Of a stretch of DNA of 64,000 bases, positions 16,836-60,619 are shown piece after piece. The notes below the pieces were generated by a model. It had not been told where the DNA came from, did no database searches, and saw only the letters and a list, made by a program, of their open reading frames with translations. The stretch comes from Nymphaea colorata (Eukaryota; Streptophyta; Magnoliopsida; Nymphaeales; Nymphaeaceae). Location: NCBI RefSeq assembly GCF_008831285.2, contig NC_045143.1, positions 2,234,503 to 2,298,502 on the forward strand. Direction: 5' to 3'. Positions within the stretch are counted from its first letter, which is position 1; each line of letters starts with the position of its first letter. Position numbers and translations under genes: made by a program.

Positions 16836-16838
<3 letters not shown>

Positions 16839-16901
<63 letters not shown>

Positions 16902-35287: not shown

Positions 35288-35402
35288 CCTAGATGCTTAA
35301 CGGTGATCCCGATGGAAAGAAAACCAAAAGGTTCGGGGATGGCCGGGTTCCTTTTCAGGGTTTGCTATGTAGTGAACACCAAGGAAGGGTGCGTTAAGTT
35401 TA

Positions 35403-37830: not shown

Positions 37831-37867
<37 letters not shown>
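37831..37867. repeat. (CA)n(TA)n microsatellite
   Basis: CA then TA tract. The matching site in duplication copy 2 (52267-52308) is pure TA, so the tract composition changed after duplication. Confidence 0.9.
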
Positions 37868-38259
37868 ATCTATTACATTTTGTGATTGGTTTTATAACTG
37901 CCGTATATTTCTAGAGTTTCTTTTCTTAATAATTATGTAGATCTAGTAAGCATGTTTCCAAGTGAACTTTACAATAGTCAGACCCAATCTTGGTCTGACC
38001 CGATGTACATCGACTAGTATTTATATATGTAGCACCCAAAAAAATCAAACTAGTGAAGAAAGACTTCATCCAACACCAACTTTGACTAGCCACGTAGGTT
38101 GTGCCCCTCGGGCCAATTGTGGTATGCATGTAGGACAACATAGGATCAAAATGGATTTTGGAAGCCAAAAACTTCCAAAACTTTTTCATTGTGCAACATT
38201 TTGTCCTTTCACTATTAATTACAAGATCATATGTGTCTCTTAACATTTTATAATATCAA

Positions 38260-38560
38260 CTTCGCATTTTAGGGTGTATGAGGATGACACTCTCCAAATC
38301 TCGATTTTGTAAAAACTTGGTTATGTGAAAACAAAATTTTTCATGAGTATTAATTATAAAATGGTTGCTGTGTTTGCGTGATACACTGGGAACACAGTCT
38401 TCTGTAAATGACCCGGATAAGATAATTATTTACTCCTTTTTTTTGAAAACCAAGTTTTATGAAAACTGAGTTAGTCTTCACATCATCCAAACAAGACCAG
38501 ATATTGTCTGTACTGTCATCTAAAGTCCCCTTTAGATTTTTAAAAACGAACCAACATTCA
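38260..38560. mobile_element. MITE-like element, GGGTGTATGAGGATGACACT end
   Basis: Starts GGGTGTATGAGGATGAC and ends near CTGTCATCTAAAGTCCCCTTT, giving roughly inverted ends. The interior has AAACTTGGTT and AACCAAGTTTT motifs in opposite orientation. The copy at 52740-53030 is in duplication copy 2. Related in style to 40505-41000. Confidence 0.5.
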
Positions 38561-38761
38561 TAATATAATTAAACGATCGAAAGGTCGTGGAAATGGTAAA
38601 AGTAAGTATGCCAGACTGTCGGGCACATAAACATAATAATTGAATTGTATTGGGTACGATCTAAAATGTTAGCACTTCCATTAATAATTTTGATCGATGG
38701 GCATGCACTCCCCTCCATTATCATCCTGATCCGCGGCCACAACCCACAAGCTTTGAGATCA

Positions 38762-38789
38762 ATATATATATATATATATATATATATAC
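38762..38789. repeat. (TA)n microsatellite
   Basis: About 28 bp of TA; the counterpart in copy 2 (53246-53351) is about 105 bp and compound. Confidence 0.9.
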
Positions 38790-38869
38790 TGTGAGGGAGA
38801 GAGATTTGAAGTCAAAGGCGCCCCTAACAATAAGCTTAACACATATGCAATTTAACAATGGCCCATGGT

Positions 38870-39095
38870 CCTTGTTCGTCTCTGCATTTTTTAAAGCAAG
38901 TTGGACGCTACAGTTCCATTGTGGGGTTTGAACAATCTAAGGTCATGGCCCAACTCCTGCGGACTTCGTCGATCATCTCTTATATATTGTCAATATTCCC
39001 ATCATCAAGTTGACGTAGCCGCCATGTACATATGCTGACGTTGGCACGCAATTTTGCACGTTTTCAGATCCACCGGATGATTTGAACTTGCGAAT
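38870..39095. repeat. Dispersed repeat R1, copy 4
   Basis: AAGTTGGACGCTACAGTTCC, TGGGGTTTGAACAATCTAAGG, then the CACGTTTTCAG and GATGATTTGAACTTG blocks. Matches 53410-53650 almost base for base. Confidence 0.75.
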
Positions 39096-39099
39096 CTAA

Positions 39100-40560
39100 A
39101 TGCTCTCTTGGTTCTCACATCGAGTGAGCACTGGTTACATGTTGAGGGCGATTTGGGTGTAATGGAAAGACGAAGGGATGAAGCCAAGGTAGAGCTTGCT
39201 TGGGCCTTAGTCCACTTAATAAATTCTTTTAAAAAAAATTATATGCAAATTTTAAAAAAAATCACTTGTTTTGTACAAAAATTTTGAAAAATGATATTTC
39301 GCCGCTAGTCAAAATTTAGAAAATTTAATTGGACTGGCTTCATAAAAAATTTCTAGCTCCACCCCAACATCTTCCCTCGCCCCTACCTCATGGATAGGCT
39401 TCCTGGCAAGGATAGTGGGTCCACCAAAGAACACGTCCACATGAAGGCATGGGAAGATGCTTCCTTTACTGATGTGTAAAGGCGAATGTTTATTGATAAA
39501 GATCTGTTCTTTTATATTCCCGAACATATGTTACTCCATTATAAATTGGACATGGACAGCGTTACTTCTGATTTCTGAAAGATAAAAAGCAAAAAAGAGA
39601 AACGAATGAATGAACGAGCAACCCAAGGACTATCAAATGTTTCTGTCACTGCCAACCACAGTGAACGGTTCATTTTTTAACAGTTGTTTAGGTTTCAGCT
39701 GGATCCATAGTGTAAGAACTCATGAGGACCTGACAATGACTTCAACCAAGTAAGAATGTGCTCGGAATAACTATTCAAATAGTATGAACACAACCCTGAA
39801 AATACTGTCTAGGACGACCGGGGACTTAGATCAATTGGTTCCAATTTTTTTAGAAAATAAAGGAAACATGTCATTCTTCCGGGTGAGCAAGGGGTATTAA
39901 TCCCACCGCCCGAAAAAGGCCCGAAGGCCCCCCCATTCCCCCTGCCTCCGGGGTCCTGAGCTGCGTCGGTGTCAGCGATAGCAACGGTGCACCCTTCAAC
40001 TTAGATGTCGCGCCCTACCGCCTTAAGACACAGGAACATAACGCCCACGGGAATCAAACTAGAGATCTGCCTTAGTACAGGCCCCTAACTCAACCAGCTA
40101 CGCCATGTCATTCTTAATTCAGAACAGATAATATATATATTTCGGTTTTTTAAGTGTATGGTTTTTTACGTGATGAAAGTTGAACAAAAGTTTTCATCAT
40201 TTCACATTCCCTTTTCCTTAGTGCATGATAAATGTATCTGGAAACCAAAAAACATCCCAATTGTTTATTTGTATTACTTTTCTCTTAGATGGAAGACAGA
40301 GAGAGCATTCACAGCAAGAACAATATCCAGGTTTCTTTTTTCTTCGCTAGGTACGGTAGGTTCCTTTTTTCCAAAATTTTCAACTACGAGGCTACAACCA
40401 GTCAAGTGTCGTCGGATTGGCAGCTTCTAAAGGTAAACATTTGAGAAATTTCCACTCTCAATTTTTTTGCTTGTGATTTTAAGAAATATTGATTATGTTT
40501 TTATTGTTTTCTTAACGGGTGTTTGGATGGCACTCTCATCTAACATAATTTAAAAATTCG
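39100..40560. other. Segment present only in duplication copy 1
   Basis: Replaces about 0.23 kb of unrelated sequence (53650-53880) at the same place in copy 2. It holds an AT-rich degraded element at 39200-39370 (ending near TTTCTAGCTCCACCCC), the SINE-like element at 39879-40103 and DNA without recognisable genes. Whether it was inserted here or lost from copy 2 cannot be decided from the window. Confidence 0.6.
39879..40103 (-). mobile_element. tRNA-derived SINE-like element with 12-bp target duplication
   Basis: Read on the - strand it begins GGCGTAGCTGGTTGAGTTAG (A-box-like) and about 35 bp later has AGTTTGATTCCCG (B-box-like), the internal Pol III promoter layout of a tRNA-derived SINE. 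The rest is GC-rich and ends near TTGCTCACCCGG, without a clear poly(A) tail. The element is flanked by perfect copies of CATGTCATTCTT at 39867-39878 and 40104-40115. Length about 225 bp. Family not named. Confidence 0.75.
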
Positions 40561-41000
40561 TTTGTTAAAATTAAGAGGGTGTTTGCCTGACACGCTCGTC
40601 TAATCCAGTCCGAATGAAAACTTGGTTTTGTAAAAATCAAGTTTTTTAATGAGTTTTAAAAACCTTATTTATTTGTTCAGGTGACAAGCTCAAAACTTGG
40701 TTTCTGAATAAGCTCAGGGCATTAGGTTTTTCACTCCTTCTTACAAAACCAAGTTTTGTCAACACTAGGTTTTCCCTAAACCCAATCTTGATGACAACTA
40801 AACACTGGTTTTGTGATGTCATCTATAAGCACCCTAAGTTTTTTAGTGAGCTTTGAAAACTTGGTTTGTTTATTTGGGTGACAGACCCAAAACTTGGTTT
40901 CATTTATAGACAACTTGAGCAGGTTTCTAATCTTCTTTTACAAAATCAGGTTCATTCAAAACTAGTTCCACCGAAACCCAATTCTGATGGCACTCAAATA
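40505..41000. mobile_element. MITE-like element(s), TGTTTGGATGGCACTC end
   Basis: Left end TGTTTGGATGGCACTCTCATC, with internal repeats of AAACTTGGTTT and AACCAAGTTTT, and a right part ending near CTGATGGCACTCAAATATTCC. It reads like two nested or tandem related MITEs, each beginning GGGTGTTTG. Copy 2 carries the right part at 54090-54500. Confidence 0.45.
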
Positions 41001-42459
41001 TTCCAAAACACTCTGTACAACTAGATGGTACTGGAAATTTAATTTTTCACATTGCCTTGTGTCAATTTCTTTTTTTCAGTTCTTTGATTTGCAAGCAATT
41101 CTGCCAGATTTGTTCCCAAGTATGATGCTAATTTTCGCAGCCACTCGTTCACGTATTGGAACTGAAGCAATTAAGTTTTTGTTCTAAGAGCAGTCAAATC
41201 TATACTTGGCACCAGCTGTCATCTTATTGCTGTGAAAACAATATGGTTTTGGTGTTTTGGCTTTACGTTACCAATTTCAAGTGAAACCTCATTTTCATAT
41301 ATGTCTAGTGTTAATCTAATCGATATACATCCTCTCATTACAACCGACGTGTAAAGGAAAGGATCAGATAGACTAAAACTGGCATAGAAGACTCAGATGA
41401 CAAAACGTGCATCAAAAGCAAAGATGATTGATCAAACGCATCTTTGATTTTGGAACACGTCGTTTTCAGAAAATCAAATCAACTTTGATCATGGATGACA
41501 AATCTTAATTCTAAGAATATTTTTCATCGTTCGATATATATATATATATACAATTTCACATAAATGTGTGTGTGTGTGCAGATAGATCTCTTGTTGACTA
41601 ATTAGATTGATGAAAGCTGAAGGATAAGCTCAAGAGGTGCACCTAATATTTGTTTTTGAAACTTTGAATGAATGATCAGGTCCCATGTACATTAACAACT
41701 TCATTTCCGCACAGGCATAAGGAAATTTCCCACTCTAACAAACAAATATATAAAGTGAACCCTTTGTTTTCCTTTTTATAATTCTTTTTAACAAAAGATG
41801 CACAGATGACTACCAAAATCATTAGAACCTTTAGGTTAAACGACTACAGTCAATCCTCCAATTGGAACACACAAAATAATGTGGCCGATTTGTACTTATC
41901 TATTTGATTTTAGTTACAAACTATTTGAACTGTGAAACCAAAAAAATTTCAATTGATTTAATTAATCACAAATCGCCACCCGACAACTGTCCCTTTGTTT
42001 GTGTTCTTAACAAATTTCTCAAAGCTAGCTAGATGACAACTCATTTTTCAGAAACTTCTGCACTGTTCTCATTGTAAATACTATGATCAGTTCCCTTCAA
42101 CGCTGTTTGACATAAGGAATAAAATGTAAGTATTTTATGAATCTATCCTAAAACTGGGTTAAATTCACGAAACGCTCTATCAAAGTTCCCATGAATCTAT
42201 AGCAATTTTGAGGTAGATTCATGAAATACTAATGATCACATGAAGTCCTTAACGTCGAACAACCGCTGCGTGAACCCTAGCTGCATCCTGTCTGCATTAG
42301 AACCTACTATCATCGGAAGTTTAAGTATTTCCTAAAATGTTGTAATCAATATTTAAGCCAAAGAAGATCATTTAAACCTTCTAACTTTTGAGCCGTATAT
42401 ATAGTTGTCTGTACCATTTTTATTATATATTCCTGCTTAGTTAGGCTAACAAATTAGTT

Positions 42460-42545
42460 AAGTGCAGCGCTCAATGCTTACGAGAATTGAACTAGTGACT
42501 GGCCTTGTAGCCAGCTGTGGGTCAACTAGTTAATGAAGCTCCTTG
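42460..42545 (-). mobile_element. Possible tRNA-like SINE remnant
   Basis: On the - strand TTAACTAGTTGACC (A-box-like) is followed about 30 bp later by AGTTCAATTCTCG (B-box-like). The counterpart in copy 2 is at 55970-56075, with the better B-box AGTTCGATTCTC. No target duplication found. Confidence 0.45.
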
Positions 42546-42662
42546 GGGCAGCTGGCCCCCCAGACGAATCCATTTTCAACAGCAGAATGGGTCCGGAAGC
42601 AGTTCAAAGCTTTTAATTACGTTAACCCTTTTCTCACGATGCGGAGCCCTGATCGAAGCTCT

Positions 42663-42991
42663 TTAGTTACCTCCAGCTAAAAACATCTGGCTCCATTTAA
42701 GGGCAATCACGTTACTCTTCTCATCATCTTTGGTGGGGATTGTTAGTCCATTAGAACATGCTCTACTAATTTCCACTAATCGATCGGCTAGGAAGAATCC
42801 AAATTGGGTGGGCTCATGGTGGGAGATTGGAGAAGGATCCAAATCCAACCCCATAACACATCCAATATCCCAATTCCGATCTGAAAGCCAATTAAAACCA
42901 AGTTCATGATCTGAAATTTACTGCTTGTAGCCAGACCCAATACTTGTCCTACCATTGGAATCGCCCCACAAGCCTGAAGGGCAGGGTCCAT
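42663..42991 (-). other. Conserved but unidentified open segment
   Basis: Two overlapping frames on the - strand (42991-42788 and 42854-42663) could encode a hydrophobic piece (VLIGFQIGIGILDVLWGW). The same frames persist in copy 2 (56479-56297 and 56400-56188) despite small deletions. No domain recognised. It may be part of a decayed transposon or gene; recent duplication alone explains the conservation. Confidence 0.25.
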
Positions 42992-44822
42992 TTTGTTGAA
43001 ACCGAAGTCAATGAAAACGATTTGGACCTAGTTGGGTCCATTTCTCACCGGCAACTATAAATGGCGAATAAAGTTTTGGTAGATAGTGATAGATCCGCTC
43101 TGTTATGTCCTTGCGGCATAGAATTGAGGGCAACACCAGGAGGTATGTAGCCGCTATTTGAATAATATTTTGTGCATGCTTTTACACCTACAATAAAGGA
43201 ATAAAGGAAAATGAAAGAGATGATGGACTGTGAGTAGGGGTAGAGGGTGGGCCGATGCAAATTTAACTAAAAATTTTTAAATAGTTATAGTTATATATAC
43301 ATAACGAAAAACATATAAAAAATTATATTTAAAGTTAATAAAAAAATTGGAATCGGGTCAAGTCCAGCCTGGCCTAATTTGAATTCAGGCCTAAAACCAA
43401 GCCGGCTTGAGCCCATTTTTAAGTCTAGCCCGGTGCCCAATCTTATTTAGGAGTCTATCGCAACTTTTAGGATATTGTGAATTTGTCAAACTCGGTTCTT
43501 ACCATAGAGGGATGATCAAGTATCTCATATCCAATTTCACACAACAGAATTTGATCAATCTCCAATTTTTATGTATTAAACTGTATGCCAATTAACATCT
43601 ATTTGATGTCTCCAAGAGGTTGGCACAACGAAAGGAAGTTAAGGGGATTGGTAGGTGTTCAGTCTTTGTTTTAAATCTCAATATCATCAACATTCTGTGT
43701 TGTAAAAAAGTTGTCACTGATGTACAAGTTGAAGCATGGAAAGAATGACACAAAAGAAAAGGAATGGGTGAATGATTTCAACCTGGTAGTAACCCACGTG
43801 ATTATTACTAGGAGCTATTCATTTAAAAAAAGTTCTTCTAAACATGCTGGATTTAATTGGAAGTACAGTAATTTTGATAAACCAACGTATTAACATTCCA
43901 AATAATATGAAAATAAAATCTGTGTTAATGTTCAATCTAATTTAATGGAGCAACTGATGTAGTTCTTAGTGGGTCTTCATATTTAATTTCTGGTTCTCAT
44001 ACGACATACAGGCACATAAACGCTCATACGCACAAAAAGGGCAATAATGAAACGTGAATGTCGTCTTCATAGTCCCCCATATGGATTGCCTAGACATGTT
44101 AGCTCTAATTAAGTTACTTTTTTCAGAATAGATAATATATAAGTTGCAATCCATAAGAAACCAACTCAGACGTAAGGTCAGATGCTTTGTGGGGATTGAC
44201 TTGTATAGTCTTTCAATAACAGCATCGTGGAAAAAAGGAAATATAATTAAATAATTGCTAGTAGCAATTGACTAAGCATTACACCTTGAAAGTTGGCGCA
44301 TTTGGTTTGAATTTGAATTCAGTTGAAACTCCTCGTATTTAGAATGAAAAATAAATATTTTAGTCTCAAAGAACAAGAATGAGAGCATATCGGTAGATCA
44401 GATTAAGCAAAATTAAGAAACATGAAGACCATGTTGTAAGATACGGTATATATCCAACGCCAATTTAAAGGAAAGTTTATAAGTACAAAAGGAAATGTTA
44501 ATTTTCATTGCCAAGAATCAGATTCAGAATTTGATTCTCGATTCATTCCTATGGAACGGGAATATTCCCAATCTGAATGACTTCAGTAAGGAAATTAAGG
44601 CAAGGTTTTTGCATTGATGGTGACAGAAACGAGGCCTGATCACGCTGTTGAAAGTTCAAAATATTCGGTACGAAGCTCTGAAATGAGTTCAGTCTCATAA
44701 AAATGTATGCGGTGGTTCTACCTTATTAGTACATTTCATTGCTTAAATTGAGATCAGATTCTCACTCCACCTGCTTTATTACCATAACCAAATGTAGACT
44801 ATTCACCTTTCAATTCAAAATG

Positions 44823-44845
44823 GATATATATATATATATATATAC
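44823..44845. repeat. (TA)n microsatellite
   Basis: Short TA tract; the counterpart in copy 2 is at 58378-58408. Confidence 0.85.
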
Positions 44846-45879
44846 TTTCTCCTTGCTTAATTATAAAGATCAATATTTTTCTACAACGACGTCCGCTTTT
44901 GGCCAAAGCTTCTTGATGTTTCGATATGAGAATACTCTGATGGTATACCCACCTACCCAGGTGATATACTGGATCATGACCAGTATCTACTGACATTGGG
45001 AAGACGGCTGTTGTATAGAAAACATACTCTGATGTTTCCACATGAACGTTGATGAAAGTTGAAGTCTATTCTGACATTTATGGTTAGGGGCTGGCAGGTG
45101 ACCCGACCTGTCTTCCCTTCGAACCCCCGAGAGCCAATTTTCTGCGCTACAAATGTGGTGAGAGTAGCATCTTGAGACACCAAAGCAGACCTTGTATGTT
45201 GGATGAGGGGTTGGGTGAACGCTTCAGTCGTTCTAGAGCAGCAGTTCAAACCCTGGTTTACCCGTAATAAAATCACTTGGGTATTAGACACAAAGTAAAA
45301 GAAGGTGGATTTCAAGAACTTAATTAGTGCCTTTTCATTTCTTTTTACAAACTTTTTAGGTTATGATCAGGAGAAAACCAACAATCTGTTATCACTGACC
45401 AAATTTGTTATTTAGCAAACAACCTTGTCATGTAAAGCCAGGAATTAGATCCACCAACTAATCTGGTGCTGTTTTTTTCTTGCAGCAAAGGATGCCACAT
45501 ACCTTAGGCATCAAACCTTTAGATAAGAGTATGGAGACCTCAGGGGAAGGGAGAAATCGATGCCTGCACAAGTACCAGAATTTCAACTGTTTTTGAATTA
45601 TCTATCCCATCTAAATCGTTTTCTAAAGTGCTGTAAAGGCTTGGCTCTGTTCATGTCAATGATCTTCCCTATAAACCCCAGTTAAGAATCCAATATTCTT
45701 CATAAAGAAACTTTTGGCATTTTCTACATGTTAAATGCCCGTTTTGTCTTTGCTCATGACTTACCACCGGGACCCCTATTTGAAGTATAGGGGTTAATGA
45801 ATTTATTTTTCTCCTGTCATCTTGTTTCAAGGTTACTAGAACTCCATTATCACAAAAGTTCCAGTTTTGTCTTACTAAC

Positions 45880-46085
45880 CTAGGTGGAGGTTGGGCGCCG
45901 GCAAGGACCATGGCCCCACTCCCTCCCTAGAAGAAAAACAAACAATCAAAATTTTACTTGTAAATTTTGAAAATTTTATTGTAACCTATGTAAAAGATTT
46001 GAAAAATTATATTTTTGCTCCCCTTAAAATTTTAAACCTAGCTCTTGCCATGAAAAATTCCTAGTTCCACCCTTGAACCTAGGTA
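45880..46085. mobile_element. Degraded element with GCCATGG...TTCCACC ends
   Basis: An AT-rich body between GGACCATGGCCCC and CTAGTTCCACCCTTGAACC, resembling old terminal fragments of plant transposons. The copy-2 counterpart is 59985-60190. No coding sequence. Confidence 0.35.
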
Positions 46086-46869
46086 ACATATTCTAATAAT
46101 AGCTAGTGCGGTTTCTTGTTAATTTTTATAGAATCAAACAAGAGGATGATCGATTATTATTGACATTTGACGGTTCTTTCATGTTTGTTCTCTTATGATC
46201 ACTGTCATCATACAGATCGTGTTGGCCTTAATCCTTGTAGTAATTAGGTTGACGGCTAACTGTTAGTCCCTGCGATTCATGGTTAATCAGTGTTACAGAT
46301 CATTTTTGCTAAACCCACGTCGTTATGGCAGTACAGCCGATGGCTAGGAATCCCTAGTTCATGGCAATGCATCTCCTTAAAAAGCAAGACACGAAAACAC
46401 AAGACCTATGCTCTGGACAAAATGCAATTCAACATCAGTTGCCAGATCTAAATTTCTATAAGATCCAAGTAGATCATAGAGTTCCTACCCCAAACTCAGA
46501 AACTGAATACAAAACCGACCAACTAAAATATACGTCTAAAAGTTTAAAACAAATAAGAGTACATAATTGTGACGATTTCAATCGAATCCACTAACAAGGT
46601 TTCAGCGCGATCCACTAGTGCAAGAACTTACGAACGCTAGGAATCACTCCAACCATGATATCTAGTATCATGCATGCTAGCTCCAAGAACAAACTAACAT
46701 GTGATCGTTTATTTTATCTATTCATAGTTTATATATTCTCTTGGTACAACCGCTTGGTTAATCACATGTATAGCGAGTGCAGATATATGTTTAACAAAGC
46801 TTGGAATGACGACTGTTTGACGCATATGAAACTTAATAATGCCTATTGGTTAGCACATGCCCCTCTTTT

Positions 46870-47100
46870 TCCTTTTCTGCATTTTCAAAAGCAAGTTGGC
46901 CGCTACAGTTTCGTTATGGGGTTTAAACAATCTAAGGTTTTGGCCCATCATCCGTTGAAGTTAGCCGCCATTTACTGGGCAATTTTGCACGTTTTCAAAC
47001 TCCAATATTCTCTTATGCAACAACTTTGCAATTAACTATTGAATTCATCTTAATTTTTTCTACCCACCTGATGATTTGAACTTGAAAATTTCAAACTTTA
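46870..47100. repeat. Dispersed repeat R1, copy 5
   Basis: Same motif order as at 23630-23930 (CAAGTTGGCCGCTACAG ... CACCTGATGATTTGAAC). Confidence 0.7.
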
Positions 47101-47156
47101 CAGCGTTTGATATTAATCTAAGATCATTGGGATCTGAAATCCATGGATTATTTGAA

Positions 47157-47180
47157 TCTCTCTCTCTCTCTCTCTCTCTG
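47157..47180. repeat. (CT)n microsatellite
   Basis: Pure CT tract following repeat R1, as at 31231 and 60890. Confidence 0.85.
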
Positions 47181-48120
47181 GAAACAAACACATTGGATGG
47201 GTTGAGAGGGTTTCTAAGATACTAGAGAAAAAAACATTGAGGTTCCAATGGGCATGAATTTGACAGTAGGGGCCGACTTAATAAATGACTAGGCTGGGTC
47301 TTGGCTGCTAACAAAAGCTTCAGGTCAGCCCAGGCCAAACTTTGTCATCCCATGGGCTAGCATGATACCCAACGTTAGAGACCATTTGTAATTCAAAGGA
47401 ATGGTGCAGGGACCTCAAACGTCTTCCCTCATAGATTCAGTTGTGCGCGCTGTTATGGGAACACAACCTACATGCGCAGTAAGAGTATGGGGATATTTTA
47501 ATAACTTTCTAAAAAAGTATCTCTTTTATGGTCCTCTTACTTTTTTCGATTTTCATTTTTGTCTTCCCAAAAGTTTTTTTTTTTTTTTTCTACGTGAATT
47601 GGAGTATTTTTGTCATAACCATACTTGCGCACATATAACCAAGTTGGCTTGCAGTCTGACTGCCTCTTCAATGGTTCATAACCATCCATCCAAGAATTTC
47701 AAAAGAAAAAACCCCGCCCAACTGAAAAACGACAAATAGTTCATGGGCTATTGTTGCAGCAACCCCCAAGACGGAAACACGTTCATCACTCGACATATGA
47801 CATAAGGTCACAATGAATTCGAAAAAACACAGATGATATGTGCCGTGCGTCGTTCTGTCTCCGACGTTTATATCCATTTTGATGGAGCGCAGAGGCAGCG
47901 TTCATTGGAAAACGAATGACAAAATTGTTCGGTTGTGGTTTATTACTTATCCATCATCAGATCATGTAGCAGCAACCCGGAGTAGACTTCGTATTCATAA
48001 AATCTATATATCACACAAGTAGAAGAGATAGTCGGCGTCAATTCACGTTCAGATTGGGAATTAACAACGGACCCATATTCTATTAAGAAAAAGTGGTAAT
48101 TGGCGAAGCGATGCTCTGTT

Positions 48121-49642
48121 CTAGCTCTCTATATAGTTAGACAGGTAGAATCCCTGCCGGCCGGCGCATGGTGCACCGTGAGAGACGAAAGGAATCTGGG
48201 CAGCACTAATGACGCCTACATCGCAATCATGTTGTGGTGTGATGTAGTAAATGACATAGGGGCACTCGTGGTTGTGCGTACCCTCATACGTGGTGATCAC
48301 GAACCTTGGATCTTCACTGTCTCTTTCAGCCCTCTTCTTCACGCTGCAGCCTCCATGGGAGCACCGGTAGTAATTCCTGCAGATTTAGCAAGGTTTGATT
48401 AGTAGGCGTGTCTCGGCAAACTTCTGTCAACTATTTTCATATGATCAAACATGACCAAGTTGCCAGAGTATTTCAAACAATATTTCCATAGAGGTAACAA
48501 TCTGATGTATGAATGCACTTTCTCGTTGCTTAGTTAGAAAGATCAATATTTTTCTGTAATGAGATCTACTTTTTTTATACTAAATGGTAACCTTGGTATA
48601 TATATTTGCGCGCCAATAATTCCGTGAAGTTTACTATACATGCCAGCCCCACCCATGTAGGTGTGAAGAGCTCTTTGTGGGCTTAGTGCACAAGACATGA
48701 GTATTCGGGAAGAAACAAAACAGTGGAGATCAACTTGGTTGCCGTTTAAATTTAGTTGCCAAAGAGCATCCATATGTTGTCATAAACCTAGACGAATATG
48801 ATTTCCATCTCAAATATTAATTCCATTCACAAACTAATACCCTTTCGTATATATGTGTCAAAGAAAGATGAGATGGTGCAAACTTATTACCTAGGGTTTC
48901 GGTTGTCCTTAACCATCTTCTTTCCATACTTCCTCCATCTGTATCCGTCATCCAAGTTCTCAACATCCGACATTGTCTTAAATGCGACCTTAACACCAAG
49001 TTCATCTGATTTTCTTTTCCTCGAGCTACACTCACCTCTCTGTTTCCTGAAAAGCAAAGAAATTGGTCATTAGCGATCACATGAAGGTCGCTGCTGGTGC
49101 TGCTGAACTTGCCCGGGGGATGACTCAGATCAATCAATATGACACTTCAAGGGAGTGGTAGATGATGCTTTTAAAATAACGAGAGACGTTGAAGGCAATC
49201 GGCTGAAAAAGAATGAAGATTGGGAGGTGGGGATCGAAGGGCTTGACATAATCTGCAGACTCTAAGAGCCAGGTGACTAACCAATTAAAGCTTCAAGAAT
49301 GGAAGAAAGTGCGTTCACATGTTGATGAATCTATATCAGGCAGTCTTTGATGAGGTGGTCAGTTGACGTTCGATTACCAGAGCCACCACCATCTGAGATG
49401 TTTAACTTTAAATCCCTTCTACTCACTTACTTTGCTTGAGAATCGCCGATCTTGTTTGGCTGGTTTGAATCAGAGGTCGGAATCTGTAGGTAGCCGTCCA
49501 TTTCCAGGCCTTCAAACAATTCACCGTCGATTAATGGGTCGCAGAAGTCGAGGATGTCTTGCAGCTGGAAGCAGGAGTCATTCTCTGCAGCGGGAAAAAT
49601 TTCCGGTGTGTACGCTGGCAGATCTGTGCAGACCTTGCTCAT
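48121..49642 (-). CDS. WRKY copy W4, chimeric group IIc WRKYGKK factor, 207 aa
   Basis: Exons 49642-49431, 49046-48891 and 48376-48121 (212, 156, 256 nt) join in frame; intron 2 is only 514 bp. Exons 1-2, intron 1 and promoter nearly match W3: the only protein changes seen are R2S, N51Y and Q120R. Exon 3 and intron 2 up to about 48870 match W5 instead (GVISAAQ and GAPCAGRQG, where W3 has GVVSAAQ and GAPYAGRQG). W4 thus spans the junction of the 14-kb segmental duplication. It alone has V139A and R143S in the zinc-finger region (KKRAERDSEDPRF; all other copies [10 protein letters not shown]), replacing residues that are nearly constant in group II WRKY proteins. WRKYGKK (108-114) and Zn ligands C128, C133, H157, H159 remain. 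It may be a working but altered factor or an early pseudogene. Confidence 0.92.
48862..48895. other. Junction of the 14-kb tandem duplication inside W4
   Basis: Left of about 48871, W4 intron 2 shares W5's sequence, including loss of a 25-30 bp GATGAAGATGA-containing piece that W2 and W3 keep (34492-34520). From about 48880 (GTGCAAACTTATTAC) it follows W3 (W5 has GCGCAAAATTATTAC). The switch lies within about 20 bp, beside the exon 2 donor. Confidence 0.85.
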
Positions 49643-49754
49643 CCTAGATGCTTAACGGTGATCCCGATGGAAAGAAAACCAAGCGGTTCGGGGATGGCCG
49701 GGTTCCTTTTCAGGGATTGCTCTGTAGTGAACACCAAGGAAGGGTGCGTTAAGT

Positions 49755-49905
49755 TTATCTTATATAAGCACCGAAGCAGGTTCTAGGAAATGTTGTGCAA
49801 TAATCTACTAATGTATTATATAACAATAAAGCGATTCCTTGCCACAGGTCAACCAACCATGGTTTGCTAGTACGGTGTCAAAGAACCATGGTTTGCATGT
49901 ACCGT
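49755..49905 (-). promoter_or_regulatory. W4 promoter: TATA box, W-box-like motifs, doubled ACCATGGTTTG
   Basis: Same layout as W3: CTTATATAAG at about 49759-49768, GGTCAA (W-box TTGACC on the gene strand) near 49848, and two ACCATGGTTTG copies near 49857 and 49886. Near-identity to the W3 promoter reflects recent duplication. Confidence 0.6.
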
Positions 49906-50621
49906 GTGCCTGTGATTAATAATCTTTTAAAAGAAAAAATTAATGTGATTTATTATTTCAAAAATATTAAAAAGTATTTTATAATCTAACTCTCTAAATC
50001 TGTTTAACATAGATTCATAAAACATTCACATATTATCTTTGCTGCCAAACAATAATAAACTGTTTTATCAATCTGTCTAAAGATTGGGGGTAAATTGATT
50101 CTTGAAATATTGTAACGTATGAATCTGAATGTGTCAATTATGTTCAACAATTGATTATTGTTTCCATTACCAAATGGCCGCTTAGAAACCTCAGTGGTTC
50201 TCCCAAGACGAGATTAGACTAAAAGCACATTAGACCAAATCTCTAACACATTCACAGCCACACTCAAGGGATTATGCATGTTAAGGATCAGTTCTGTCAA
50301 TTAATTGGAGAGGGAGGTTGATATTCAAAGCCAATGTAGTCGAACGCTAGGTAAAACATAAATTTACTAGGTCATCTATACATATACGGCCAGGTGAAAT
50401 TTCTTAGAATCCACCCTTGGAAACATTCCAGATTTATTTTTTTCATAGAGTAAATTTTTTGAGCATTTGATGGACCACAGATAATCCATACATATACAAA
50501 GAAACAGAAAAGTGAAAGTTCCGCGATTGCGATTGCAAGCTGAAGTTGAAGAAGGTCAAAAGTTGAACCTCGATTTATTCTGGTAGCAAATGAATTAACC
50601 AATCCTTGTCGTGTCATAGAA

Positions 50622-50655
50622 ATAATAATAACAATAATAATAATAATAATAACAA
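50622..50655. repeat. (AAT)n microsatellite
   Basis: About ten AAT/AAC units. Copy 1 has only a few units near 36163-36185. Confidence 0.85.
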
Positions 50656-50739
50656 AAACAAAAGAAAGAAAGCAGACGAGAAAAAACTTGAGAAAAGACA
50701 GGACAGAAATTACAGGGTGATGATCTGTGAGGTCTGGTC

Positions 50740-51120
50740 AGACCTCACGGATGCAAGAATCAGGGAGGCAACGTCATCCCATACGGAAGCATGAACATGA
50801 AAGTAAAATTTCTGCTTACACGTGTCAAAGAATGGTTGGTTGTAGTGTGCACGTGGAAAATTTTCCAGCACGTGGTTTTCACTGTAATGGGATAAGAAGG
50901 TTCTAGGTAGAAGTTATTCGGATGAGCAGAAGCTATACCTGATGAAGAAAAAGAAGAAGAAGAAGAAGGGCCGAAGCTCCGTCGTCCTTGAGAACTTAGG
51001 AGATTGGTGATATTCAAAGATAGAAGACAGAAAAGGCGGCCGGCCCAGAGGGCCCCTGGCTTCTCAGTTGAGGAGAAAAAAAAAAAAAGAAGAATGTCCC
51101 CATGATCGATCAGTTATCCA
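50740..51120. repeat. Array-unit block R2, copy 4
   Basis: Almost identical to 36270-36690, with a shorter (GAA)n tract near 50952-50968. Confidence 0.75.
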
Positions 51121-52264
51121 CTGTTCGGCCATGTTCTTAAAATAATTCTCGCTTTTATAAAGTTGTTCGGTTCGTAAAAGATCAAGAAGGGATGCATTTT
51201 ATAAAGAAAAGGCACGTGATTCCGATTATTTCGCTCAAAGTTTTATCAAACAGTATGAAACTCGTGGCTCGGGAGCCCAAAATATTCACTCAGGCAAACA
51301 CGGTAGGGACTACAACTAAGTTAAAAAATGCTTTCATGTATTCGCAAAATCTCGGTTGAACAGTTTCTATGAGAAATTGGTAATAAAATGAAATTCATGC
51401 TTAAATATGAAGCATGTCTTTTGTTAAATCTAAAAGATAAACCAACAAAAATTTATTAATACTCTTAATATTTAACGCCCTGACTTTACATATCATTTAA
51501 GCTAAATACATTGAATGTTGCCTGTCTTAATGAATCTCTCTCTCGCTGTCTTCTTTCACTGTTATAGTTTTACTTGTTGCTCTTTGTTGTTTTGGCATCC
51601 AATTTTCTTGGATATGGCTCCGTTTAATGAAGTTCTTTCCAGCTCTCTCTCTGTCTCCCCGTCTCTTTCTTTCAACCTTATAAGAGCAAAAGTTACCGAA
51701 ACGAACCCACGTCTGTTTGAAACAAGAAATTTTTTAAAGTGAAACTTTGGATATGCACACGGTATAAACTTAGATGCGTCTGTGAGCAATTCATTTTATT
51801 CCTCATATCTTTTGCTTAATTACAGAGACAATCATGATGACATCCATGCCTTTTTGTCACTATTTGGTTGCTTGGTCTGGTGGTTTTAAGATAACAGGCA
51901 ACGGCAGATAGATCTTGCCGCGCATCGTCGAGCTTAAAATAAACAAAAGACATTCAGTGGTGGGTAGGTACAAATCGAAATACTGCGCATGGGCTGCTCA
52001 ACATACAGCAATTTATTTTAATATTATTCCGAGTATGAGGTAATTGCCATGCAGCCACATCTTAACTTCCTCAATCTCAGTTCCTGAAATTTGACGGATA
52101 CAAATACAAAATTTCAGCTGAACATCTTTTAAGGTCAAGTCAATGGCCCTCTTTTTCTCTCTTCCTCTCTCTGTCTTTATGGATTGAGAAGTCATCCGGC
52201 TTCTCATAACATAAAGCCCAATGCAGCGCGTTGAGTGATGAAAATGGCAGAATGATTTCAGCTC

Positions 52265-52266
<2 letters not shown>

Positions 52267-52308
<42 letters not shown>
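52267..52308. repeat. (TA)n microsatellite
   Basis: About 42 bp TA; counterpart of the CA/TA tract at 37831. Confidence 0.9.
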
Positions 52309-52309
<1 letters not shown>

Positions 52310-52739
52310 CTATCACATTGTGTGATTTGTTTTACAACTGCTCTATATTTATAGAGTTTTCTTCTCAATAATTATGTAGATGTAGTAAGCATGTTTCCAA
52401 GTGAAGTTTACAATAGTCAGACCCAATCTTGGTATGAGTCTGTTTGGTATGAACCCGATGTACATCGACTAGGACATTGCTCCCTTTCAATAAAGGGTTT
52501 ACATATATAGCGCCTAAAAGAATCAATCTAAGGATGGAAGACTTCGTCCAACACCAACTTTGACCAGCCACCTAGGTTGTACCCCTCAGGCCAATTGTGG
52601 TATGTATGTAGGACAAGATAGGATCAAAATGGACTTTGGAAGCCAAAAACTTCCAAAACTTTGTCACATGCAACATTTTGTCCTTCCACTATTAATTACA
52701 AGATCATATGTGTCTCTAACATTTTATATTATCAACTTT

Positions 52740-53030
52740 GCATTTTAGGGTGTATGAGGATGACACCCTCAAAATCTCGATTTTGTGAAAATTTGGTCTT
52801 GTGAAATCAAAATTTTTGATGAGTATTTTTTTATTATAAGATGGTTGCCGTCTTTGGGTGATACGCTCGGAACACGGTCTTCTGTAAATGACCGGAGGAG
52901 ATAATTATTTACTCCTTTTTTAAAAACCAAGTTTTATGAAAACTGAGTTAGTCTTCAGATCATCCAAACAAAACCAAGATATTGTTTTTGTACTGTCATC
53001 TAAACTCCCCTTTATAGTTTTAAAAAAGAA
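52740..53030. mobile_element. MITE-like element, copy-2 counterpart
   Basis: Counterpart of 38260-38560, beginning GGGTGTATGAGGATGAC. Inherited by duplication, not an independent insertion. Confidence 0.5.
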
Positions 53031-53245
53031 CCAACATTCATAATATAATTAAACGATCGGAAGGTCGTGGAAATGTTAAAAGTAAGTATGCCAGACTGTC
53101 GGGCACATAAGAATAATAATTGAATTGTATTAGGTACGATCTAGAAGGTTAGCACTTCCATTAATAATTTTGATCGATGGTTATGCACTCCCCGCCATTA
53201 TCATCATGATCCGCCGCCACAACCCACAAGTTTTGAGATCAATGT

Positions 53246-53271
53246 TATATATATATATATTTATTTATTTA

Positions 53272-53351
<80 letters not shown>
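53246..53351. repeat. Compound (TA)n(TTTA)n(TA)n(GA)n microsatellite
   Basis: TA, five or six TTTA units, a second TA run and about 30 bp of GA. The single TA tract at 38762 is its partner in copy 1. Confidence 0.9.
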
Positions 53352-53409
53352 TTGAGATTTGAAGTCAAAGCCGGCCCCAACAGTAAGCTTAATGCATATG
53401 CAATTTAAC

Positions 53410-53650
53410 AATGGCCCATGGTCCTTGTTCGTCTCTGCATTTTTTAAAGCAAGTTGGACGCTACAGTTCCATTGTGGGGTTTGAACAATCTAAGGTCATG
53501 GCCCAGCTGCTGCGGCCTTAGTCAATAATCTCTTACATATTGTCAATATTCCCATCATCAGTTGACGTAGCCGCCATGTACATATACTGACGTTGCCATG
53601 CAATTTTGCACGTTTTCAGATCCACCAGATGATTTGAACTTGCAAATCTA
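53410..53650. repeat. Dispersed repeat R1, copy 6
   Basis: Counterpart of 38870-39095. Confidence 0.75.
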
Positions 53651-53890
53651 AATTCTCTTAGTTCTGTGGTGCGTTATAGCCATGTCCTCAGTTCTGCTTG
53701 CTTGTTTGCTTCTCTTTTCCCCTCCTCTCTCTCTCTCTCTCTCTGATCTTTGATGCCTTCTAGCTTGAGCTTAAGATTCTTAATTTCAGTTCTGATCTTA
53801 ATGGAGGAAGACGGGAGATCAAAAAACTATTTGAGTTCTGATCTTAATTTCAGTTCGTAAAAAGTTGGTTTTATTAAAATTACGAGGGTG

Positions 53891-54079
53891 CAGTGGCGGA
53901 GCCAGAAATTTTTGGCTATGGAGCACTTGTGAAAAAAAATTCTGTTATTTTAAAAATAAAACAAATATTGGCGTGGGCAACACAGGCGTGAAGCTGGGTT
54001 GAGACTCCATTTCACATGGAGTTTTCTTGAGCTGGCGTGGGCAGGCGCCCACACCTGCCCCACGCTGGCTCCGCCACTG
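53891..54079. mobile_element. Non-autonomous hAT-type MITE, 189 bp
   Basis: Terminal inverted repeats CAGTGGCGGAGCCAG and, at the right end, CTGGCTCCGCCACTG are perfect over at least 14 bp. The element is flanked by an exact 8-bp direct repeat, CGAGGGTG, at 53883-53890 and 54080-54087: the hAT-superfamily signature. The interior has no coding capacity. Copy 1 of the segmental duplication has an empty site (AAGAGGGTG near 40574), so the insertion is probably younger than the duplication. Ends of this kind are common in plant genomes. Confidence 0.92.
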
Positions 54080-54089
54080 CGAGGGTGTA

Positions 54090-54500
54090 TGCTACACCCT
54101 CATCTAATCCAGTTTGATAAAAACTTGGTTTTAGAAAAATAAACTTTTTTAATGAGTTTTAAAAACCTTATTTATTTGTTCAAGTGGCAATTTCAGCACT
54201 TGGTTTTTGAATGGCGTCAAGGCATTAGGTTTTTCACTCCTTTTTACAAAACCAAGTTTTGTCAACACTAGGTTTTCCAGTTTTGATGACTACTAAACAC
54301 TCCAAAACTTGGTTTTGTGATGTCATCTATATGCTCAGTGAGCTTTGGAAACTTGGTTTGTTTATTTGGGTGACATATTCAAAAGTTGGTTTCATTTATA
54401 AACAACTTGAGCAGGTTTTTAATTTTCTTTTACAAAATCAGGTTCATTCAAAACTAGCTCTGCCGAGACCCAAGTCTGATGGCACTCAAATATTCCAAAA
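54090..54500. mobile_element. MITE-like element, copy-2 counterpart
   Basis: Counterpart of about 40570-41000, with the hAT element inserted at its left edge. Confidence 0.45.
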
Positions 54501-55969
54501 CACTTTTTACAACTTGATGGTACTGGAAATTTAATTTTTCACATCGCCTTGTGTCAATTTCTTTTTTTTCAGTTCTTTGATTTGCAAGCAATTCGGTCAG
54601 ATTTGTTCCCAAGTATGATGCTAATTTTCGCAGCCACTCGTTCACGTATTGGAACTGAAGCAATTAAGTTTTTGTTCTAAGAGCAGTGAAATCTATACTT
54701 GGCACCAGCTGTCATCTTATTGCTGTGAAAACAATATGGTTTTGGTGTTTTGGCTTTACGTTACCAATTTCAAGTGAAACCTCATTTTCATATATGTCTA
54801 GTGTTAATCTAATCGATATACATCCTCTCATTACAACCGACGTGTAAAGGAAAGGATCAGATAGACTAAAGCTGGCACAGAAGACTCAGATGACAAAACT
54901 TCCGTCAAAAGCAAAGACGATTGATTAAACGCATCTTTGATTTTGGAACACGTCGTTTTCAGAAAATCAAATCAACTTTGATCATGGTTGACAAATCATA
55001 ATTCTAAGAATATTTTTCACCGTTCCCACTTGTTCAATGTGGCGGTTGTTCAATATATATATCTAAATAACAGATACAATTTCACATAAATGTGTGTGTG
55101 TGCAGATCTCCTGTTGACTAATTAGATTGATGAAGAAAGCTGAAGGATAAGCTCATGAGGTGCACCTAATATTTGTTTTTGAAACTTTGAATGAATGATC
55201 AGGTCCCATGTACATTAACAACTTCATTGCCGCACAGGCATAAGGAAATTTCCCACTCTAACAGACAAATATATAAAGTGATCTTCTTGTTTTTTCTTTC
55301 GATCATTCTTTTTGACAAAAGATGCACAGATGAGTACCAAAATCATTAGAGCCTTTAGGTTGAACGACTAGAGTCAAGCCGCCAATTCGAACACACAAAA
55401 TAATGTCGCCGATTTGTACTTATCTATTAGATTTTAGTTACAAACCATTGGAACCGTGAAACGAAAAAAAAATTCAATTGATTTAATTAATTACAAATCG
55501 CCGCCACACAACTGTCCCTTTGTTTGTGTTCTTGACAAGTTTCTCAAAGCCAGCTGGATCACAACTCATTTTTCAGGAAACTTCGGCACTGTTTTCATTG
55601 AAAATACTATGAGCAGTTCCTTCAATGCTATTTGGCATTAGGAATAAGATGTAAGTGTTTATGGATCTATCTTAAAACTGGAGTAAATTCGTGGAATGCT
55701 TTAACAAAGGTCCCATGAATTTATAGCAATTTTAAGGTAGATTCATGGAACACTAGTGATTACATAAAGTCCTTAATGTCAAACGACCACTGCGTGAACC
55801 CTAGTTGTCTTCTGTAGAACCTACTATCATCAGAATTTTAAGTATTTCCTAAAATGTTTTAATAAATAATTAAAACAAAAAAGATCATTTAAACCTTCTA
55901 ACTTATTGAGCCATATATCTAGTTGTCTGTACCATTTTTTATTATACAATCCTGCTTAATTAGGCTAAC

Positions 55970-56075
55970 AAATTAATTAAGTGCATCGCTCAATGCTTAT
56001 GAGAATCGAACTAGTGGCTGGCCTTGCACCCATCTGTTAGGTTAACTAGTTAATCAAACACCCTTGGGGCAGCTG
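55970..56075 (-). mobile_element. Possible tRNA-like SINE remnant, copy 2
   Basis: Counterpart of 42460-42545, with B-box-like AGTTCGATTCTC on the - strand. Confidence 0.45.
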
Positions 56076-57550
56076 CCCACACAAACCAACCCATTTTCAA
56101 CAGCAGAATGGGTCCGGCAGTAGTTCAAAGCTCTTAATTAGTTGGCTTACCCCTCTTCTCACGATGCGGAGCCCTGATCGAAGCTCCTTAATGTCCTCCA
56201 GCCAAAAACTTTGCAATCACGTTACTCTTCTCATCTTCTTTGGTGGGGATTGTTAGTCCATTAGACCATGCTCTACTAATTTCACTAATCCGTCGGCTAG
56301 GAAGGATCCAAATTGGGTGGGCTAATGGTGGGAGATTGGAGAAGGATCCAAATCCAAACCCATAACACATCCAATATCCCAATTCCGATCTGAAAGCCAA
56401 TTAAAACCAAGTTCAAGATCTGAAATTTAGTGCTTGTAGCCAGACCCAATACTTGCCCTACCATTGAATTGCCCCACAAGCCTCAAGGGCAAGGTCCATT
56501 TTGTTGAAACCAAAGTCAATGAAAACGATTTGGACCAAGTTGGGTCCATTTCTCACCGGCACCTGAAAATGGCGAATAAAGTTTTGGTAGAAAGTGATAG
56601 ATTCCGCTTAGTTAAGTCCATTTTGCATAGAATTGAGGGCAACACCAGGAGGTAGGCAGCCGCTATTTGAATAGTATCTATGCATGCTTTTACACCTATA
56701 ATAAAGGAAAAGGAAAGAGGTGATGGATTGTGAGTCGGGGTAGGGGGTGGGCATCGGGCAGGGCCGATTCAGATGTAATTAAAAAAAATTATTTATATTT
56801 ATGTATATATATATATATATGTATATAACGAAAAATATATAAAAATATATTTAAAATTAATAAAAATTTTGAAATCAACTCAGCCCAATGTGAATCCGGG
56901 CCCAGGCGGCTTCAGCCCATTTTTATGGTTTGAGTCCGGCCTGGTGCCCAATCTTATTAGGAGCTTATCCCAACTTCTAGGATATTGTGAATTTGTCAAA
57001 CTCAGTTCTTATTACCGATGAGGGTTGATCACGTATATCATATCCAATTTCACATAACTGAATTTGATCAATCTTCAATATTCTTATGTATTAAACTGTG
57101 TACAAATAAACCTCTATTTGATGTCTCAAAGGGGTTGGTGCAATGAAAGGAAATTAAAGAGGATAATAGGTGGTCAGTCTTTGTTTTGGATCACAATATT
57201 GGCTGCAAAAAAAAGCGACTGTTGATGTGCAAATTGAAGCATGGATAAAAAGGCACAGAGGACAAAGGGTTGGGTGAAGGATTTCAACCTTCAGCTAGGT
57301 GGTGGGTCTTCCCTGCTCACCTGGTATTAACGGTGTGATTATTACTGGGAGCTATTCATTTCAAAAAACTCTTTCTATCATGCTCGATTTAATTGGAAGT
57401 ACAGTAATTTTGGTAAACCAACGTATTAACATCCCTAATAATACGAAAGTAAAATCTGTGTAAATGTTTAATGTAATTTAATGGAACATGTAGTTCTTTG
57501 TGGGTCTTCATATTTAATTTCTGGTACTCATATTCTATTCTACGGATAAA

Positions 57551-57571
57551 AGAGAGAGAGAGAGAGAGAGA
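57551..57571. repeat. (GA)n microsatellite
   Basis: Short GA tract absent from the matching place in copy 1 (near 44000), where ACGACATACAGG follows directly. Confidence 0.85.
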
Positions 57572-58377
57572 TGACATACAGCCACATAAACGCTCATGCG
57601 CACATAAAAATGGGCAACAATGTGAATGACGTCTTCAAAGTCCTCCGCTTGAATGGTGCCAATTTTTTTCTCTTTGGTACGTCTGAGATTCGCATATTCG
57701 AACGCTTTATATGGATTGTCTAGACATGTTAGCTGTAATTAAGTATACGGCTTCTTGAAATTAAGTTACTTTTTTCAGACGCAAGATCAGACGCTTTGTG
57801 GGGATTGACTTGTATAGTCTTTCAATAACTGCATCGTAGAAAAAGGAAATATAATTAAATAATTGGTAGTACCAATTGATTAAGCATTACACCTTGAAAG
57901 TTGGCGCATTTGGTATGAATTTGGATTCAGGTGAAACTCCTCGTATTTAGAATGAAAAATACATTTTTTAATCTCAAAAAACAAGAATGAGAGCGTGCCG
58001 GTAGATCACCACGTTGTAGGATGCAGTATACATCCAACGCCAATTTATAAGTACAAAAGGAAATCTGAATTTTCATTGCCAACAATCAGATTCAGACTTT
58101 GATTCTCGATTCCTATCAAACAGGAATACCCTGAATGACTTTCGTGAGGAAATTAAGGCAAGGTTTTTGTATTGATGGTGGCAGAAACGAGGCCTGATCA
58201 CGCTGTTGAAAGTTCAAAATATTCAGTACAAGCTCTAAAATGAGTTCAGACTCATAAAAATGTATGTGGTGGTTTTATCTTATTAGTACATTTCATTGCT
58301 TAAATTGAGATCAGATTCTTACTCCACCTGCTTTATTACCATAACCAAATGTAGACTCGTCACCATTCAATTCAAAA

Positions 58378-58408
58378 TGGATATATATATATATATATAT
58401 ATATATTC
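58378..58408. repeat. (TA)n microsatellite
   Basis: Counterpart of 44823-44845, slightly longer. Confidence 0.85.
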
Positions 58409-58624
58409 TCGTTGCTTAATTATAAAGATCGATATTTTTCTACAAAGACGTTTGCTTTTGGCCATGAGCATACTCTATGGTATACCCACCTACCCAGGGG
58501 ATATGCTGGATCATGACCAGTATCTACTGACATTGGGAAGACGGCTGTTGTATAGAAAACATACTCTGATGTTTCCACATGAACGTTGATGAAAGTTGAA
58601 GTCTATTCTGACATTTACGATTAA

Positions 58625-59165
58625 TTGTTGGTATAGACAATCATGTTCCGACGGCCATCAGGAAGCGTTCATGAAACTCCTCTTTTGCTGACGCTTCCTT
58701 TGAACATCATTGAAAATCACCTATACTCGCTTCTAAGCTGCTGGTTCCGCGAGTTGGAGGGCAAGGCCGAGAGCACCTTGATTGACTTTGAGCGAGTTTC
58801 ACCCGGCCAGTTGCTTCCAAACTTGGTAGGGTTCGACCAAAAGATCACTAGTGATCCCAAGCCGTGTAAAAGGGGGTCTAAGGGGTTTCCACCGTGGGAA
58901 ACGAGATCCAACACTCGGGTATGCCGAGGGAGAGACTTATTCCTTTGGGCGAAATCCACAATAAGTGGTCAAGGTCGCCGCTAGTCGCCAGAGCTCCAAG
59001 AGGTTCCTTGTCGTTGTCCGTTGGCTGATGATGCCGTCATGCATGGAAATGTGTCTGGAAAGGCTTTTTTTTTGTAGTGCATGTCAAGCCTCTTTGTGGG
59101 TGCAGTGCAGAGCACTTGGATTTTCTAAGATCCGTAAGGAGGTTGATACAACAGGATTTAGTAAG
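58625..59165. other. Segment present only in duplication copy 2
   Basis: About 540 bp with a visibly higher GC content than its surroundings, absent between ACATTTATGGTTA and GGGGCTGGCAGGTGACC in copy 1 (near 45085). Contains a 113-codon + strand frame (58643-58984; contains LLPNLVGFDQKITSDPKP) with no recognised domain. Could be a transposon fragment inserted in copy 2 or a deletion from copy 1. Confidence 0.5.
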
Positions 59166-59984
59166 AGCTAGTAGGTGACCAGTCTTCGTTTTGAATCCCT
59201 GAGGGCCAATTATTTGTGCTGCAAATGAGGGGCTATTAATGCCTGTTGAAGTGTGGTGAGGGCAGCATCTTGAGACACCAAAGCAAGACTTGTATGCTAG
59301 GGATGAGGGGTTGGGTGAAAGCTTCAGTCTTCTTTTTTAGAGAGTGGGTCAAACTATGCTAATCTGTAAAAATACTTGGGTATTAGACAAAAAGTAAAAG
59401 AAGGTGGAATTCAAGAACTTAATTAGTGTCTTTTCAATCTATTTGTCAATTGTTTTTCTTTTTTCAAAACTTTTAGGTTAGATAAGGAGAAAACCAACAA
59501 TCTATTTTCACTAGCCAAGTTTGTTATTTAGCTAGCAATCTTGTCATGTAAACCCCAGAATTAGATCCATCAACTGACTGGTGCTCTTTGTTCCTTGCTG
59601 CAAAGGATCGCACATACCTTAGGCATCAAGCCTTTAGATATGAGTATGGAGACCTCAGGGGAAGGGAAAAAGCGATGCCTGCACAGGTAAACTGTTTTTA
59701 GCATATCTATCCCATCTAAATCGTTTTCTAAAGTTCTGCAAAGGCTTGGCTCTGTTCATGTCATTGATCTTCCCTATAAACCTCAGTTAAGAATCTAATT
59801 TTCATGGTAAAGAAACTTTGGCATTTTCTACAAGGTAAATTCCCGTTTTATCTTTGCTCATGACTTACCATCGGGACCCCTATTTGAAGTATAGGGGTTA
59901 ATGAATTTATTTTTCTCATGTCATCTTGTTTCAAGGTTACTAGAACTCCATTATCACAAAAGTTCCAGTTTTGTCTTACCAACC

Positions 59985-60190
59985 TAGATGGAGGTGGGGG
60001 GCCGGCAGGGGCCATGGCCTCCCTCCCTCCCGGGCAAAAAAAAAAAACAAAATTTTGCTTGTAAATTTTGAAAATTTTATTGTAACCTATATAGAAGATT
60101 TGAAAAAATATATTTTTTCTCCCCTTAAAATTCTAAATCTAGCCTTTGCGATAAAAAAAACCCTAGTTCCACCATTGAACCTAGGAAACA
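59985..60190. mobile_element. Degraded element, copy-2 counterpart
   Basis: Counterpart of 45880-46085. Confidence 0.35.
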
Positions 60191-60619
60191 TATTATAGCT
60201 AGTGCAGTTTCTTGTTAATTTTATAGAATGAAACAAGAGGATGATCGATTATTATTGACACTTGATGGTACTTTTATGCTTGTTCTCTAATGGTCACTGT
60301 CATCATACAGATCATGTTGGCCTTAATCCTTGTAGTAATTAGGTTAATGGCTAACGGTTAGTCCCTGAAGTTCATGGTTAATCAGTGTTACAGATCATTT
60401 TTGCCTAAACACAGTGTTACAGATCACATGCTAGCTCCAAGAACAAACTAACATGTGATCGTTTATTTAATCTATTCATAGTTTATGTATTCTCTTGGTA
60501 CAACCGCCTTGTTAATCACATGTATAGCAAGTGCAGATATATGTTTAACAAAGGTTGGAATGACGACTGTTTAGCGCATATGAAGTTTAATAATGCCTAT
60601 GGGTTAGCACATGCCCTCT

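Follow-up and report, generated by a model that had tools for sequence, protein, structure and literature searches.

How does a gene come to carry the 5' half of one neighbour and the 3' half of another, with both neighbours still intact beside it? This is the question raised by W4, a WRKY gene of Nymphaea colorata located in the window (the whole 64-kb stretch of DNA analysed here), for which the initial annotation had proposed an origin by unequal crossing-over between two ancestral WRKY copies. The genes and gene parts on which the answer depends are the following.

24453..27115, minus strand: W2, intact out-paralogue, used as outgroup (gene model, 207 aa)
32055..35287, minus strand: W3, intact parental-type copy (gene model, 207 aa)
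48121..48376, minus strand: W4 exon 3, 256 bp, W5-type, zinc finger and C-terminal tail (identity W4-W5 0.984, W3-W4 0.961)
48377..48869, minus strand: W4 intron 2, W5-type part (alignment and intron lengths)
48891..49046, minus strand: W4 exon 2, 156 bp, W3-type, WRKYGKK (identity W3-W4 0.994, W4-W5 0.917)
49431..49642, minus strand: W4 exon 1, 212 bp, W3-type (identity W3-W4 0.981, W4-W5 0.873)
61811..63341, minus strand: W5, intact parental-type copy (gene model, 207 aa)

The WRKY array and the W4 gene

W2, W3, W4 and W5 are intact minus-strand WRKY genes, each encoding 207 aa from exons of 212, 156 and 256 bp, and a sixth copy of the array, W6, lies outside the window. The open reading frame of W4 is kept across its three exons, and the gene models and the alignment bear out the coordinates, exon sizes and residues given for it in the initial annotation. 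The product belongs to the WRKY family (Pfam PF03106, E 2.2e-24, 85.9 bits with a cut-off of 21), and its finger, C-X4-C-X23-H-X-H at residues 128-159, agrees with the definition of group IIc, C-X4-5-C-X23-H-X1-H (PMC8744262). Since exons 1 and 2 sum to 368 nt, intron 2 is in phase 2; it is an R-type intron located inside the WRKY domain, at the R of NPR. W1 (16751-19382) is a WRKY remnant made up of pieces of exons 1 and 3, in which no match to exon 2 was found, so that it has no WRKY motif. A search of Rfam gave no match. Outside the array, an open frame at 747-1190 that matches an ABCA12-like C-terminal domain (PF24526, E 2.5e-18) represents a neighbour gene.

Parentage of the two halves of W4

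Among the three four-taxon trees, only (W3,W4) was accepted for a 1,043-bp 5' block and only (W4,W5) for a 945-bp 3' block, each side rejecting the tree of the other. The result was weaker for exon 3 alone, with the rejected trees at an AU p of about 0.02, and a single tree for the pooled region 47925-49912 favoured (W3,W4), because the 5' signal is stronger. Separate alignments to which W6 was added gave bootstrap values of 100 and 100 for (W3,W4) and of 99 for (W4,W5). No one phylogeny holds for all the segments of W4, and its proposed nature as a hybrid of W3-type and W5-type copies is confirmed.

The position at which parentage changes could be placed within a few nucleotides.

48864..48877, minus strand: switch from W3-type to W5-type sequence at the 5' end of intron 2 (W3-like down to site 48874, W5-like from site 48869 on)

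At 510 sites W4 has the base of W3 or of W5 but not of both, and the best break falls between 48874 and 48869, 17 bp into intron 2, with a log-likelihood gain of 127 and 2-log-unit support from 48877 to 48864, in keeping with the shift within ca. 20 bp that had been described from the diagnostic differences. Upstream of the break 249 of 278 informative sites of W4 are those of W3, and downstream 179 of 232 are those of W5; the site walk has a maximum descent of 126, and none of 20,000 shuffles exceeded 28. Most of the minority sites can be put down to changes private to the other parent: when polarised by W2, 34 of 52 downstream (47500-48850) are private to W5 and 5 are common to W3 and W4 against W2, and 17 of 29 upstream (48870-50500) are private to W3, with 5 common to W4 and W5. 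Between 48890 and 49642 there is no site at which W4 and W5 agree against W3 and W2; one more site common to W4 and W5 lies where W2 has no base.

The intron deletion reported as shared by W4 and W5 was also recovered; it comprises ca. 31 bp relative to W3 and begins at the switch. Intron 2 measures 514 bp in W4, 508 in W5, 1655 in W2, 2230 in W3 and about 1.6 kb in W6. In the protein, Cys24, Cys34 and Pro36 are common to W3 and W4, as noted earlier, with F, S and S in W5; C24 and C34 are absent from W2 and W6, and P36 is present also in W6. The affinity of exon 3 to W5 is borne out by I179 and C193, present in W4 and W5 and replaced by V and Y in W3.

W4 at the junction of a 14-kb tandem duplication

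34544..48873, no strand: duplication unit 1, from the 5' part of W3 to the 3' part of W4 (end-to-end alignment; 14,330 bp)
48874..62556, no strand: duplication unit 2, from the 5' part of W4 to the 3' part of W5 (end-to-end alignment; 13,683 bp)

These two units, at whose junction W4 sits, align end to end, interrupted only by scattered indels and by a single stretch without homology at 39.1-40.6 kb, with 1,296 differences in 12,527 aligned columns. An unequal crossover between a W5-type and a W3-type copy is expected to leave the order W3, hybrid, W5 and a doubled interval between the exchange points, and both are observed here, the W5/W3 hybrid lying between two complete parents. The end-to-end duplication of 14 kb, which the initial annotation did not mention, adds strong evidence for unequal crossing-over. 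The earlier proposal is thus strengthened by the order of the hybrid and by the duplication; a single crossover, however, does not account for everything, since the two halves of W4 differ in divergence.

WRKY 3' spacer pieces without an adjoining WRKY gene are found at 38846-39030 and 53399-53617, on account of which each unit of ca. 14 kb may consist of two ancestral units of ca. 7-8 kb, one having lost its WRKY gene. Unit 2 also contains a 189-bp element (53891-54079) that has inverted ends (CAGTGGCGGAGCC), is flanked by a target duplication of 8 bp (53883-53890 / 54080-54087) and resembles at least 25 stretches in other parts of the genome; we take it to be a hAT-type MITE. No copy of it was found in unit 1, and it was therefore probably inserted after the duplication.

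Two ages within the duplication

The comparison of the two units brought out three tracts of low divergence.

48874..49922, minus strand: young exchange tract covering exon 2, intron 1, exon 1 and the proximal promoter of W4 (HMM, 15 of 1023 sites differ from W3; scan)
51010..52151, no strand: second low-divergence tract, in the spacer, pairing with 36565-37708 (HMM 28/1135; scan 28/1147)
54524..54873, no strand: third, shorter tract, pairing with 41032-41380 (HMM 5/349; scan 4/354)

They were identified with a three-state HMM (rates 0.020, 0.0996 and 0.498), which had the best BIC among the two-, three- and four-state models tried, and with a scan that did not count the 416 aligned columns of the non-homologous stretch 39115-40574, these columns being kept in the HMM. 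In the HMM the first tract covers 48894-49922 of W4 and begins in W3 at the first base of the unit (34544); the positions of the mismatches indicate an equally low rate from the junction onward. The scan found the same tract, with no result as good in 1000 shuffles. Its divergence from W3 is 1.5%, as compared to ca. 10% for most of the duplication. Noncoding differences amount to 11/665 between W3 and W4 in the tract and to 36/471 (7.6%) between W4 and W5 in intron 2 (Fisher p about 1e-6). The HMM, the scan and these noncoding counts together reject a single crossover of one age, and the inequality of the two halves points to a younger exchange over 48874-49922. It speaks against a single event, not against a crossover as the first step.

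A low local rate, or constraint, can be rejected as the cause of the low divergence, because introns 1 and 2 are about equally far from W2 (67/369 and 83/425, respectively, in W5; 72/372 and 81/425 in W3). The tract belongs to the W3 lineage. In it W3 and W5 differ at 94 of 650 sites, more than the 36/471 of W5-type sequence (p 0.0004), by which a W5-type origin of the tract is rejected, and in agreement with the 73/421 of W3-type sequence (p 0.23). Upstream of the tract W4 is still W3-like (identity 0.866), and the W5 flank beyond 291 bp upstream resembles W2, not W3 or W4, which places the crossover between 48869 and about 49922.

A short tract of high identity, differing by 1.5% and lying between W5-type sequence and a flank diverged by ca. 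10%, is what gene conversion leaves, and the younger exchange was most likely a gene conversion. The transfer may have run from W4 to W3, provided that the 5' half of W4 was by then of W3 type. The sharp switch would then probably be the edge of the young tract rather than the ancestral crossover point. The second tract suggests that exchange between the units has been repeated. W4 and W5 are also close in exon 3, with 5 differences in 309 sites, a result equalled in 0 of 1000 shuffles; as this sequence is coding, we did not score it as a conversion tract. Two other segments of low divergence are no more than chance would produce (114 and 121 of 1000 shuffles).

Origin of W4

We consider it probable, at about 0.72, that W4 is a hybrid born in two steps, an unequal crossover and a later exchange with W3. 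In the first step, chromosomes with W5-type and W3-type copies, either homologues or sister chromatids, would have paired in misalignment and recombined within the ca. 1.05 kb common to W3 and W5, from the 5' end of intron 2 to the proximal promoter. A reciprocal meiotic event of this kind would retain W3 and W5, place a hybrid with a W5 3' part and a W3 5' part between them and double ca. 14 kb, and it is this hybrid, this order and this duplication that are found in the window. In the second step, much later, when the units had diverged by ca. 10%, the ca. 1-kb tract 48874-49922 would have been exchanged between W3 and W4, presumably by conversion in one direction or the other, leaving the observed difference of 1.5% within the observed limits and setting today's switch beside the ca. 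31-bp heterology in intron 2. Two observations weigh against such a sequence of events. The right edge of the tract, 49922, is near the point at which W5 homology is lost (49912), a coincidence that conversion does not predict, and the second tract overlaps spacer sequence in which similarity to the W2 unit persists and where some constraint may exist.

It could also be that one unequal crossover in intron 2 between diverged haplotypes produced W4 and that no conversion followed, the parental haplotypes having already differed from each other in a patchwork of 1.5-2.5% and ca. 10%. Switch and duplication would in that case come from one event, and no coincidence at the left edge of the tract would be needed, but allelic haplotypes would be required that differ by about 10% along most of the 14 kb. 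Haplotypes so diverged over such lengths are unusual within one species, and we regard this origin as unlikely. More doubtful still is a duplication crossover near 49.9 kb that would have left W4 first fully W5-type, the hybrid arising later by conversion of 48874-49922 from W3. The tract does take up almost all of the block that W3, W4 and W5 have in common, so that a W5-type 5' half could have been overwritten; yet no W5-type remnant is present in it (48890-49642), although none is to be expected if the conversion was complete.

Tandem arrays are easily misassembled, and the case is judged here from the assembly alone, in which W3 and W5 reads or haplotypes could have been falsely joined. 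Several features of the sequence, however, make an artefact very improbable. Differences private to W4, at which W3 and W5 agree, are present on both sides of the switch (25 in 48870-50500 and 33 in 47500-48850), the window contains no N, and at the switch the exact W3 matches of at least 12 bp do not overlap the exact W5 matches. A search of the species' own genome with 48005-49922 rendered 16 matches, 13 of them on the same chromosome (C6), 2 on C14 and 1 on C5, and none on unplaced contigs. Moreover, neither allelic variation nor sequencing error would account for the 7.6% by which the introns of W4 and W5 differ.

Comparison with known systems

W4 is a new and clear example of a known, ordinary evolutionary process. 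At the Myb locus p1/p2 of maize, hybrids of both kinds, p2/p1 and p1/p2, are reported to flank an array, and unequal crossover and gene conversion are invoked (PMC3014980). That locus is like W4 in its tandem transcription-factor copies, its hybrid genes and the appeal to both processes; W4 differs in being a WRKY gene, in having the switch inside an intron that splits the DNA-binding domain, and in that neither a transposon nor end-joining is needed at the junction. The Sdic family of Drosophila melanogaster, as presented in the parts consulted of PMC7475035, shares with the W4 array the tandem units, recurrent non-allelic recombination and widespread gene conversion. Unlike W4, Sdic is an animal gene, a chimera of two unrelated genes formed via deletions, and one for which population data exist.

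The name of chimeric WRKY genes has been used, in the portion available of PMC9229891, for R protein-WRKY fusions, one of which was born in a WRKY tandem array of strawberry; these join a WRKY to an immune-receptor gene, whereas W4 joins two WRKY paralogues with the gene structure kept. Group IIc WRKYGKK genes have the WRKYGKK sequence, the C-X4-C-X23-H-X1-H finger and the phase-2 R-type intron of W4, but a hybrid origin is not described for them in the pages at hand of PMC8744262. Among the papers listed in the literature searches none was seen to describe this locus or a WRKY-WRKY hybrid, which does not prove that there is none.

The survival of both parents, hybrid and duplicated interval side by side makes this a cleanly resolved case, and the case indicates that conversion at a later time can set the sharp breakpoint seen in a tandem array; an age estimated from only one half of a chimera can therefore be several-fold wrong. 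The conserved intron of the WRKY domain offers such exchanges a safe place.

Consequences for protein and promoter

The switch falls in a phase-2 intron, the one interrupting the WRKY domain, and for this reason neither reading frame nor splice sites are disturbed. Judged from its sequence, W4 is expected to function as a transcription factor, with the proximal promoter, N-terminus and WRKYGKK strand of W3, an essentially ancestral finger and a W5-type tail. The statement that W4 joins a W3 half to the other gene's zinc finger was overstated. The finger of W4 contains no W5-derived residue, since E154 is also present in W2 and W6 and N134 of W5 is absent, and it carries two changes of its own (V139A and R143S), which together with Q120R are the W4-own replacements in the WRKY domain. 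Position 139 is also valine in the sequence of the WRKY4 structure, and position 143 is not conserved there. The W5-derived residues of W4 are two, I179 and C193, both in the C-terminal tail. On the W4 branch there are 5 replacements and 1 silent change, as compared to 3 and 5 in exon 3 (Fisher p 0.14), an excess of replacements that is not significant, the changes being too few to show selection.

It is conceivable, although we hold it rather unlikely, that the crossover gave W4 its W5-type 3' end, that conversion kept resetting the promoter, the N-terminus and the WRKYGKK strand to those of W3, and that the replacements of its own (5 amino-acid changes, 1 silent) are the start of functional divergence. 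The promoter and DNA-binding halves of the genes of the array would then evolve on different clocks. The proximal promoter of W4 retains from W3 what we take to be a TATA-like site at -124 and a W-box at -210; in the W5 promoter, sequences named on the same assumption are W-boxes at -358 and -231 and a WK-box at -224.
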